NCBI GenBank assembly: GCA_026393575.1
Contig: JAPKZX010000071.1
Coordinates: 1-64,000, forward strand
Direction: 5' to 3'
Length of the DNA stretch: 64,000 nt
Origin: Actinomycetota bacterium
Lineage (GTDB): Bacteria > Actinomycetota > Acidimicrobiia > Acidimicrobiales > Ilumatobacteraceae
Shown here: one piece after another, positions 19,373 through 46,001 of the stretch
How the letters are laid out: each line of letters starts with the position of its first letter
How positions within the stretch are numbered: position 1 is the stretch's first letter
Notes under the pieces: model-generated
What the model saw: the letters and a program-made list of their open reading frames with translations, nothing else
Databases searched by the model: none
What the model was told of the DNA's origin: nothing
Made by a program: the position numbers and the translations under genes

Positions 19373-20215
19373 TTAATGAACGACCCCAGCCTTATCGTCG
19401 GCTCGTATCTGCAGGAGTAGTCGGACAGCCACGATGATGAGAAGGCTTGCAAACAAGACATTTGACAGCGTGTCTGACATGCGTGCAGAAATCCATCCGC
19501 CGGCCATGGCCGAGAAAATGCCACCCAGTCCCAAGATTCCTGCGGCCCGAAGATCCACATTCTTCTTTGAGCGATTGCGAAAGGTGCCCATGATCGAAGT
19601 GGGAATGATGACTGCAACCGAAGTTCCTTTTGCCATGGCAGACGGCATGTGCAAGAGCATCATCATGGCTGGCACCATCACCACGCCGCCGCCAACCCCA
19701 AGTAGCCCAGCCAAGATTCCAGTTGCAACACCGATTGCTACAAGAGCAGCGATGTGACCTACTGAGAGAACGGCGCGTGTGGGTTCGGATGTAAGAGGTA
19801 GGAAAAGTCGCACAGCAGTAACGACAAGTAGCCCGGCGAAACCAATTGCCAGTGCCCGATGTGGCAAGACGTTAAGTAACCGCGTGCCAAGCACAGCGCC
19901 AGCGAGTGCGCCCACAGCAAGACATGCCCCAACGCGCCAATCCACGTGATCGTGAGCCCAGTACGACAATAAAGAGGATGCCGAGATTGGCAACACAGCA
20001 GCCAATGAGGTGCCGTGCGCAATTCGCTGATCCATCTTTGCAACCAGAACTAGGCCAGGGACAATAAGGATGCCTCCACCGACTCCGAATAGCCCAGAGA
20101 GAAAGCCTGCTGCTACTCCAACAAGGACAATCGTGACAATGCTTCCCTGGTACTTACCCGCTGACGAAGAATCAATGGCATCGGGCGTAGAACTCATGAC
20201 CCTATGTTTCCACAA
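19373..20215 (-). CDS. TauE/SafE-family sulfite/anion exporter-like membrane protein
   Basis: GVAAGFLSGLFGVGGGILIVPGLVL and GILAGLLGVGGGVVMVPAMMML repeats. Confidence 0.9.
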   Translation of the reverse strand: MWKHRVMSSTPDAIDSSSAGKYQGSIVTIVLVGVAAGFLSGLFGVGGGILIVPGLVLVAKMDQRIAHGTSLAAVLPISASSLLSYWAHDHVDWRVGACLAVGALAGAVLGTRLLNVLPHRALAIGFAGLLVVTAVRLFLPLTSEPTRAVLSVGHIAALVAIGVATGILAGLLGVGGGVVMVPAMMMLLHMPSAMAKGTSVAVIIPTSIMGTFRNRSKKNVDLRAAGILGLGGIFSAMAGGWISARMSDTLSNVLFASLLIIVAVRLLLQIRADDKAGVVH

Positions 20216-20244: not shown

Positions 20245-21897
20245 ATGGGTCGCTTTGTGTGGAGATTCATTGGTGTTGCGTCTCTCATACTGTTGACCTC
20301 CTGCTCAAACACGAAGACACCTGCAACTCAGCAAACAACTGATTTCAGTTCTCTCGTGCAGCGAGTGGCAAGTAACTGCACCGATGCCCCTGTTCCGCGA
20401 TTGGGCCAAGGAAATTTCTGCATTGATAGTGGTTTTACATTTTCGAAAGATGATTTCTCTTTTGCTAACTGGGGAAGATCGCAAAAAGCTGACGAAAACA
20501 TCACCATCCAAACTCTCATTGATCTCTTTGGCCATAACTCTGTATGTCTAAGTGGAAACGAGAAAACATGTACGGCTCGCCCCATCACAACCCAAAAACT
20601 CATTGAGTGGAATAGCGCACTTGCAGGGGGTCGGTGTGAAGGCATCGCTACATTGAGTGCACGGCTGCACATGGGAATTGATGACCCATCACAGTTCAAT
20701 CAGTCCGTCACTGTGAATTCAATTCGCAAGAACAACAGACAACTAAACCAAGCACTTGTGTATTGGTGGGCGACACAACTACTACCGGAAGTTGCGAATC
20801 GGGCGGAGGAATCACGCTTGCATTCACCGTTGGAACTTCTTGATGACCTCATGAATGGCTTCATCAATAATGATGGCTACACCGTCGGCATGTATTTCAA
20901 CAATGCTGGTCACTCAGTGATGCCATTTGCAGTTACAGAGCGCGCCAAAACTTTTGTCATCCATGTATACGACAACAATTATCCGGGCGAGCGACGAGAA
21001 ATAGAGATAGACAAATCATTAAATACGTGGTCGTACAACAACGCACTGCAGCGAGGTGATGGCACGTTTGTCGATTGGCGCGGCGGCACTGGCAGTTTGG
21101 AATTGACCCCCATTGCCTCGCGCGAAGGACCGTTTCAATGTCCCTTCTGTCTTGACATCGAGGACGTAAAGAAAACAACCCTCACTGTGTCATCACAGGA
21201 TCCAAAGAATCCGGTGTACGTTCGCTTGAACAGTCGTCGCGGTGACATCACAACAACTTCAGATTCGACTACAAACACCATTGATGGGGCGACAATTGAA
21301 ACATCAAAGAATGGCATCAACGGGCTACTGACAATCACACTTCCAGCAGATATTGGCGACTTTGATGTGAATTTCCAGAGCAACAACAACGTCTCGATGA
21401 CCGGTGATGCAGTCGCCACCCTTGTCCGTCCCAATATGGCAAGTATTCAGATTGCGGGAAACATCGCACTTCAATCCACAAAGAACTCTGAATCGTCCGT
21501 CATTTCTGCCAGAAAAGAGTCAACTCAAATTCAGGCACCAAGAGATCGAATTCTGCGGGTGTCACTCGCGGCACGAAATCAAATCACACACAGCACGTTG
21601 CGGGGTGGCACGTCGCTCATTGCATACCGACTCACAGACAATTCAATTGAGGTCTCGCTAAAGGGAGCCAACGGCAAGAACAGTTCTCCATCACGTTTTT
21701 CTATGCAGCCTGGTTCATTCGTATCTAGCAGCACACTCAGTATGAACAACGAAGGTTCAGTTGTCGTGACCGAATCACGTGTTGATGCGATGCCCGTACT
21801 GCCTCAGAGAAAACAGAACTTCACGCCGCAAACAAGAACTTCGACAACTACTGCTGTGGAATCGCCACCAAGCATTGTGATCTACGAGCCGGATTAA
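20245..21897 (+). CDS. Secreted lipoprotein of unrecognised family with Cys131/His223/Asp243 pattern and CPFC; paralog of 46075-48021
   Basis: Lipobox LLTSC; GRCEGIATLSAR, AGHSVMPFAV, IHVYDNNYPGERREIEID, GPFQCPFCLDIE; collinear with the second copy. Confidence 0.8.
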   Translation: MGRFVWRFIGVASLILLTSCSNTKTPATQQTTDFSSLVQRVASNCTDAPVPRLGQGNFCIDSGFTFSKDDFSFANWGRSQKADENITIQTLIDLFGHNSVCLSGNEKTCTARPITTQKLIEWNSALAGGRCEGIATLSARLHMGIDDPSQFNQSVTVNSIRKNNRQLNQALVYWWATQLLPEVANRAEESRLHSPLELLDDLMNGFINNDGYTVGMYFNNAGHSVMPFAVTERAKTFVIHVYDNNYPGERREIEIDKSLNTWSYNNALQRGDGTFVDWRGGTGSLELTPIASREGPFQCPFCLDIEDVKKTTLTVSSQDPKNPVYVRLNSRRGDITTTSDSTTNTIDGATIETSKNGINGLLTITLPADIGDFDVNFQSNNNVSMTGDAVATLVRPNMASIQIAGNIALQSTKNSESSVISARKESTQIQAPRDRILRVSLAARNQITHSTLRGGTSLIAYRLTDNSIEVSLKGANGKNSSPSRFSMQPGSFVSSSTLSMNNEGSVVVTESRVDAMPVLPQRKQNFTPQTRTSTTTAVESPPSIVIYEPD

Positions 21898-21917: not shown

Positions 21918-22829
21918 TTAACGGAAGTGAACTGCTACTTCGTTCCAGAATGTTGCATACGAGTCAAGACGTTCCGATGCAGAATTCCCCAGTGTGAAGT
22001 CAGGAACGCAGATTTCGTCAAAACCAAGTTCTTTGTACTGACCTACTGCATCAACGATTTGAGATGGAGTTCCCAGAACAGAACGATCTGCCGGAACCAA
22101 TGGACGCAATTTTTCAACTGCTTCATCTGAAGCACAAAGAAAGAAAAGCGGTTGCACCGATGTGCGAACAGTCGCAGGATCACGACCTTCTTTTTCACAT
22201 GCAATTCGCAACTTCTGAATGACGTCGCCAGCTACTTCTGGTGTGCCCCACGTGTTCCACTCTTCAGCGAAACGCGCAGTGAGACGCAGCATTCGTGCTC
22301 CACCCGTGCCAACCAAGATTGGCAATGGTGATTGCACAGGCTTTGGTTCACATGGTGCGTTCGTAATCTGAAAGTGCTCGCCATTGAATGTTGTTCGTTC
22401 TTGGCTTAGCAAGCTCTTCACGATTTCAATTGCTTCGGCAAAGCGATCAACGCGCGGTTTTGCGTCGAATAACTCGATGCCATATGCCTTGTGCTCGTTG
22501 ATTTGCCAGCCCGCACCCATACCAAGGACAAAGCGACCATTACTGATTTGGTCAATGGTGGCTGAACGATTGGCAATGAGTGCCGGATGATTCACTGTTG
22601 TTGGGGTTACGAGTGAACCCAACCGCATACGCGACGTGGTAGCTGCCAATGCAGACAGAACACTGAAACACTCGTTGAAGTTGCCGGCGATGGGTTCACC
22701 ATCAGGAGTATTTGGCATGTAGTGGTCGGCATACCAGAAGCCATCCCACCCCATGTTTTCTACAGCTGTTGCAAAATCCCGTACTTCAGTCCATGGGTGG
22801 GCACTGTTAGCCCAAGCAGAAAAATACAT
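21918..22829 (-). CDS. LLM class F420-dependent-type oxidoreductase
   Basis: ATAVENMGWDGFWYADHYMP; RLGSLVTPTTVNHPALIANRSATIDQISNGRFVLGMGAGW. Confidence 0.88.
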   Translation of the reverse strand: MYFSAWANSAHPWTEVRDFATAVENMGWDGFWYADHYMPNTPDGEPIAGNFNECFSVLSALAATTSRMRLGSLVTPTTVNHPALIANRSATIDQISNGRFVLGMGAGWQINEHKAYGIELFDAKPRVDRFAEAIEIVKSLLSQERTTFNGEHFQITNAPCEPKPVQSPLPILVGTGGARMLRLTARFAEEWNTWGTPEVAGDVIQKLRIACEKEGRDPATVRTSVQPLFFLCASDEAVEKLRPLVPADRSVLGTPSQIVDAVGQYKELGFDEICVPDFTLGNSASERLDSYATFWNEVAVHFR

Positions 22830-45263: not shown

Positions 45264-46001
45264 TTACTTGAACGCGCGAACTGGTCGAACAAAGAAGGAC
45301 GATGTTCGGAAGTTTGTTCCCTGAGTGCCGTCCGACATGAGTTCTGCCCATGCACGTGTGTCACTTGATGAGGTGGAACTCCAATACACACCGTTAGATA
45401 ACCCAGCAAGTGAGTTGTCCGCAAGGTTATTAAACAACAACTTCAACTCGTCTTTTGATGGCAAGAACCAATCAGATTTCCCAGCACCCGCATAAGCACT
45501 TGCTTTAGCTGCAGCGCCATTAGCGCATGTACTTGCCGCGCTGGAGTTCTCAGCGCCTGCTCCTATTGCATTCTTTGAAGCAGAAATCTTTGTTGTCATA
45601 TTGGAACACCAGGCAACCGATGGATCGCCATCCTTGCCATTCCAATCGGCAGGAGCTGCTTCCAAGTAATCAAAATCTGGAAATGCATTTTCAGCATCGA
45701 TGAAAAACACCACGCCGCCACCGGGACCAGTGTCTCCCACGGCGTATTCACCAGTTGTAGGGGGAAGAGTTGAACCAGACGATGCAACTGTTGTGCTGGT
45801 TTCGGTTTCAGATGGAAGTGTTGTATCCGAAGGTTCCACCGGCACTGTGGAGTCCGTACCAACGCCATCAGGAAGCGTGGTGAAAGCCGTGTTGCGCTGC
45901 CTATCTCCAGACCCACCGCAACTGGCCACTATTCCTGCCACCAAAACGGTGGCCACTAGGGCTCTGCCAGCCTTCATCATGATTTTGCGTTGTGCGTGCA
46001 C
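45264..46001 (-). CDS. Secreted lipoprotein with DUF1566-like domain
   Basis: Lipobox VASC; Thr/Ser/Pro linker; VGDTGPGGGVVFF...SDWFLPSKDELKLLFNNL...GVYWSSTSSSDTRAWAELMSDGTQ. Confidence 0.75.
   Translation of the reverse strand: MHAQRKIMMKAGRALVATVLVAGIVASCGGSGDRQRNTAFTTLPDGVGTDSTVPVEPSDTTLPSETETSTTVASSGSTLPPTTGEYAVGDTGPGGGVVFFIDAENAFPDFDYLEAAPADWNGKDGDPSVAWCSNMTTKISASKNAIGAGAENSSAASTCANGAAAKASAYAGAGKSDWFLPSKDELKLLFNNLADNSLAGLSNGVYWSSTSSSDTRAWAELMSDGTQGTNFRTSSFFVRPVRAFK

Follow-up and report, generated by a model that had tools for sequence, protein, structure and literature searches.

A stretch of 64,000 nt of contig JAPKZX010000071.1 (GCA_026393575.1, Ilumatobacteraceae), here called the window and used for all window coordinates, carries a gene for a 550-aa lipoprotein, and this raises the question of what kind of protein it is and what it does at the cell surface. 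We consider it fairly likely that this product, the subfamily A product, belongs to an unnamed papain-like family and acts as a thiol hydrolase anchored at the cell surface; the members of the family are probably peptidases. The predicted fold type and the triad are of a known kind. Less expected are a two-gene cassette in phages and fusions to Lcl_C domains. The family adds an unnamed, putatively enzymatic extracellular group with conserved catalytic-type residues to a poorly understood set of actinobacteria, and the conserved triad clearly defines the residues to mutate.

The N-terminus of the protein, MGRFVWRFIGVASLILLTSC, is a signal peptide with the lipobox LLTSC. The lipobox ends at Cys20, and this cysteine is unchanged across six aligned family members. 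The sequence-only reading of this locus had pointed out the lipobox as well as Cys131, His223, Asp243 and a CPFC motif, and all are found at these positions in the 550-aa open reading frame. It also described an all-beta C-terminal half, with which the AlphaFold prediction agrees (Table 1). The protein would be exported by Sec, cleaved and lipidated at Cys20, and then retained as a lipoprotein on the outside of the cell membrane. In the N-terminal domain, Cys131 would serve as the nucleophile and His223 as the base, with Asp243 orienting the histidine, and the most likely chemistry may be the hydrolysis of peptide or isopeptide bonds outside the cell. Perhaps the beta-rich C-terminal part positions the enzyme on its target. 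This part varies by subfamily; it has ~240 residues here, and in some paralogs more than 1000 with Lcl_C domains.

Table 1. Features of the subfamily A locus, of the subfamily B locus in the same window, and of two phage cassettes (numbered within their own loci)
Feature	Position	Strand	Remarks
TauE/SafE permease, divergent upstream neighbour	19373..20215	-	PF01925, 197 bits
Subfamily A gene, 550-aa papain-like lipoprotein	20245..21897	+	ATG start; from ORF list
Signal peptide and lipobox	20245..20304	+	codon of Cys20 (predicted lipidation site), 20302-20304
Predicted catalytic (papain-like) domain, residues ~59-290	20419..21114	+	family-wide alignments A2 and A7; AlphaFold helix/strand order
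Cys131 (GGRCEG), predicted nucleophile	20635..20637	+	101/101; first residue of predicted helix 131-142
His223 (AGHSV), predicted general base	20911..20913	+	108/109; in predicted strand 221-233
Asp243-Asn244-Asn245 (D-x-N; VYDNNYPGERR)	20971..20979	+	Asp243 predicted third catalytic residue
CPFC motif, Cys299 and Cys302	21139..21150	+	Cys in 80/110 domain hits
All-beta C-terminal half, residues ~311-512	21175..21780	+	AlphaFold predicts strands only
LLM-class (F420-type) oxidoreductase-like gene, convergent downstream	21918..22829	-	class named from sequence reading
Lipoprotein with Lcl_C, beside subfamily B paralog	45264..46001	-	PF07603, 45.0 bits (cut-off 34.9)
Subfamily B paralog, ~658 aa	46045..48021	+	E 4.5e-28 to query
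Phage two-gene cassette, L176	9354-9785 and 9770-14503		overlapping genes
Phage two-gene cassette, L190	9240-9803 and 9698-13207		overlapping genes

Conservation of the putative active site was assessed with a profile built from 14 cores and run by hmmsearch against all open reading frames of the fetched loci, with no motif pre-filter. Cysteine is invariant at position 131 in the covering sequences, histidine is present at position 223 in all aligned sequences except one (Table 1), and Asp243, Asn245 and Pro247 are each found in 109/109, counts that include many close relatives and hence are not independent. The sole change at His223 is in L023, a subfamily B copy with three in-frame stops. 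The conservation of Cys131, His223 and Asp243 is far beyond chance. Two further positions stand out in the same alignment, Gln178 (101/102) and Asn123, which lies eight residues before Cys131 (90/101). In very distant relatives the only catalytic-type residues kept are G-x-C-x-G, H and D-x-N. The CPFC motif is not universal, as it is missing from several lineages, and some of the domain hits counted for Cys299 are partial; thus the motif lies outside the defining site and is accessory. Perhaps it forms a disulphide.

AlphaFold, run with 21 aligned sequences, gave a mean pLDDT of 66 and a pTM of 0.65, with middling confidence around the helix of Cys131 and the loop of Asp243. A model of the full protein from its single sequence had a pLDDT of 34 and was useless. 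In the former model, Cys131 starts its helix and a set of helices follows before the strand that carries His223; Asp243 comes immediately past strand 236-242. The arrangement that characterizes clan CA, i.e. a helix with Cys at its N-terminus, a strand with His and, at the next strand, Asp or Asn, is present in the predicted secondary structure, and the predicted order of the triad is that of a papain-like topology with a beta-rich region behind. Secretion, the Cys-His-Asp order and this predicted layout are shared with the thiol hydrolases of clan CA (Pfam CL0125), and to this extent the original suggestion of a papain-like hydrolase stands. It gained no papain-like match, however, from Foldseek, where the whole chain searched against PDB and BFVD gave nothing under E 0.001. 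The beta-rich half dominated that search, and the best matches are unrelated beta proteins.

The family has no name in any of the libraries searched. No family of Pfam, NCBIfam, PHROGs or PADLOC is matched above its curated cut-off, and a search of PDB sequences gave no match, in line with the earlier failure to recognise a named family by eye. Comparison of 52 family cores by hhalign gave probabilities of 1.7% with Peptidase_C1 (PF00112), 0.3% with Peptidase_C39_2 (PF13529) and 0.9% with 19 transglutaminase-core sequences (Transglut_core, PF01841); the control, C39_2 with C1, reached 86.6%, while C39_2 with transglutaminase gave just 0.2% and C1 with transglutaminase was also unjoined, so that the method has low power for distant kinship. 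The low scores therefore speak only against a close relationship of the family to C1, C39_2 or the transglutaminases. In Pfam, too, there is no C1 or C39_2 match. A forced alignment places the family histidine opposite that of C39, although the family lacks the Gln...Cys-Gly motif of C39_2. Also not found in the hmmsearch alignment is a papain-style Gln ~six residues before the Cys; Gln178 comes after Cys131. The upstream oxyanion-hole Gln is not kept by all members of clan CA, and its absence is thus more telling for C1-type membership than for membership of the superfamily. The family may also bear some likeness to the YopT-type C58 enzymes, which are injected effectors. A match to DUF7854 (E 0.0036, 4/14 cores), seen in a relaxed A2 scan of cores and not with the window protein, was set aside as chance or a motif-level echo. 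A reading as a defence system was likewise dropped, having found no support in PADLOC.

Other functions can be envisaged for such a protein. With the same fold and triad, a transglutaminase- or deamidase-like enzyme would cross-link or deamidate glutamine side chains on surface proteins. The GRCEGIA motif resembles GYCEQFA, the G-x-C-E motif of transglutaminase cores in same-order relatives, and the C-H-D order is common to both. The spacing between Cys and His differs, however, being 92 here and roughly 40 in the transglutaminase sequences compared; the cysteines are not superposed in a forced alignment, and PF01841 is unmatched by every family member. This alternative, which the sequence-only reading had entertained, found no support in the profile comparison and appears unlikely. 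It is similarly improbable that the papain-like domain cuts its own chain, so that the beta-rich C-terminal part is no longer tied to the lipid anchor. The layout would suit such autoprocessing, as the catalytic domain adjoins the lipobox and precedes a long variable beta-rich region in every subfamily (550-2819 aa); but no conserved cleavage-site motif was noticed downstream of the domain, and the stretch directly behind it is conserved between subfamily A and the phage members described below, with residues ~311-390 alignable.

An envelope location, the existence of phage versions and an endolysin close by in one phage type could point to a peptidoglycan amidase or endopeptidase resembling NlpC/P60 or CHAP enzymes, aided by surface anchoring. 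The third residue of the triad is nevertheless Asp in 109/109 and is followed by x-N-x-P, whereas NlpC/P60 enzymes have His at this place, the triad being given as C-H-H in a 2023 papain-like census (PMC10318531). The main text of that census describes no family of the present kind. In Pfam, NlpC_P60 and CHAP are unmatched, and where phage loci have an endolysin it is a separate gene; we regard a peptidoglycan enzyme as distinctly unlikely. Least probable, and indeed very doubtful, is a non-enzymatic surface protein that merely resembles a thiol hydrolase. The lack of a Foldseek structure match would agree with this, but the triad is invariant throughout the family, phage clade included. That a separate phage clade retains every catalytic residue argues that activity itself matters.

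The putative thiol hydrolase gene of subfamily A stands alone in its genomic setting. The TauE/SafE permease gene adjoins it at ~20 loci, and the LLM-class gene adjoins most subfamily A loci. With a lone gene and divergent or convergent flanks at ~20 orthologs, subfamily A does not belong to an operon, and no pathway is suggested by the genes beside it. The protein itself is under purifying selection, as indicated by a dN of 0.060 compared with a dS of 0.60 for the window gene and its 89%-identical ortholog in L001.

The sequence-only reading referred to the gene as a first member, but it is not alone: there are two paralogs in the same genome, i.e. the subfamily B gene of the window and one on contig C114, and dozens of relatives elsewhere. 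Orthologs with 41-89% identity are present in L001-L003, which are public metagenome-assembled Actinomycetota/Acidimicrobiaceae genomes. All surveyed genomes of the genus except one have a family member, a few as fragments only, and the compact subfamily A form is found in 21/32 genus genomes. Occurrence across other Actinomycetota is patchy, with matches in 15/296 genomes of the class (E 1e-10 or better) and in 16/397 genomes of the phylum (E 1e-3 or better, roughly half being weak). As to known enzyme families in the genus, transglutaminase-core matches are found in 0/25 genomes (G000-G024), though the papain-like family is kept there, and Peptidase_C39_2 in 1/25 of the same set.

A plasmid search found relatives on two Rhodococcus plasmids only, where they are annotated as hypothetical. 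The protein WP_241065042.1 of Rhodococcus qingshengii plasmid pLP337 belongs to the same family (25.7% identity, E 6e-16) and has the motifs GGHCYGFA, GGHAITPI and VYDNNFPG. It differs in being plasmid-borne and unnamed in its record, and in having GHCYG in place of GRCEG. Far relatives (L044/L213, with a 1327-aa frame, L048 and L049) have GLCFG(M/W) or GNCFGM, followed by (G/A)HAVV or PHCILP and then YDPN or MDPN. These motifs suggest a wider unnamed superfamily. In L049, LGFP-like repeats precede the domain.

The frames of subfamily B are between about 550 and 2819 codons long. The copy in the window has the motifs SGHCEGLAV, GGHAILPYAV, VYDSNWPG and CPFC. Its association with Lcl_C takes two forms. 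In an unbroken frame of 2819 codons (L214:3-8459, minus strand), three Lcl_C matches accompany the papain-like domain, and L216:3-2231 (minus strand) likewise combines a papain-like domain and an Lcl-like end in one frame; an Lcl-type gene is adjacent in the window, G009, G041 and G708. It should be pointed out that Lcl_C is scarce, with zero to six matches per genome examined. The domain takes its name from the collagen-like protein of Legionella, which binds glycosaminoglycans as an extracellular adhesin (PMC11162425). The fusions and adjacency, together with the role of the Legionella adhesin, thus support work at the surface by subfamily B. By analogy, the target of subfamily B, and of this subfamily as distinct from A, is perhaps glycans or matrix. 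In another subfamily B member (L021 in G019, a 1068-aa frame), the papain-like domain is followed by SBBP beta-propeller repeats. Copies with in-frame stops are present in G010:C14 (L023) and G007:C19 (L019), and these are apparently decaying.

Family members are also found in phages. IMG/VR scans revealed 37 metagenomic phage loci, a few of which derive from one same contig, with 28-37% identity to the query profiles (L174-L198, L082-L092 and L066). The products are predicted lipoproteins of roughly 1000-1650 aa, frequently truncated at contig ends. Among the neighbouring genes are those for the terminase large subunit, portal, major head protein and a nuclease, joined in one phage type by an endolysin gene; with such genes alongside, the notion that the hits are mislabelled chromosomes was dropped. 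Directly upstream of the lipoprotein gene, 37/37 phage loci encode a small membrane protein, a coiled-coil chain of 140-190 aa with a hydrophobic segment at its C-terminus. The two genes overlap in different frames, again in 37/37, and the two-gene cassette recurs in phages of differing gene order. In one case the small protein has a match to XhlA, below threshold, and no relative of it was found in the bacterial loci.

In a tree of 51 rows, those from phages group on a single branch (support 100/99), nested in bacterial diversity. With the Rhodococcus and other distant rows outside, this branch falls between subfamily A and the rows of group B; the root is a midpoint, so that the direction of transfer is an inference. 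The simplest reading of a single supported phage branch is one capture from Acidimicrobiia-type bacteria. A tblastn search of 50,697 isolate phage records with one distant and one phage member gave no match at the search sensitivity applied, and more viral scans with other seeds gave no relatives.

What would a phage gain from such a giant lipoprotein? The position behind the same small gene makes this a testable question. Tentatively, we propose that phages of Acidimicrobiia-type hosts captured the surface papain-like hydrolase family once and made of it a two-gene cassette, whose acidic lipoprotein enzyme of 1000-1650 aa might act on the surface of the infected cell, for instance by preventing superinfection or by helping lysis. 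Superinfection-exclusion lipoproteins are known from phages, e.g. Ltp of TP-J34 (PMC3952083) and a phage T5 lipoprotein (PMC9586334). The phage members described here are likewise predicted to be surface lipoproteins, and the likeness is one of kind only; they differ in their length and in having a catalytic-type domain. In several phages, a small ferredoxin-like gene (CTGDGLCEEICPSVF) is situated downstream of the giant lipoprotein gene (L181:14253-14570 and L176:16253-16561).
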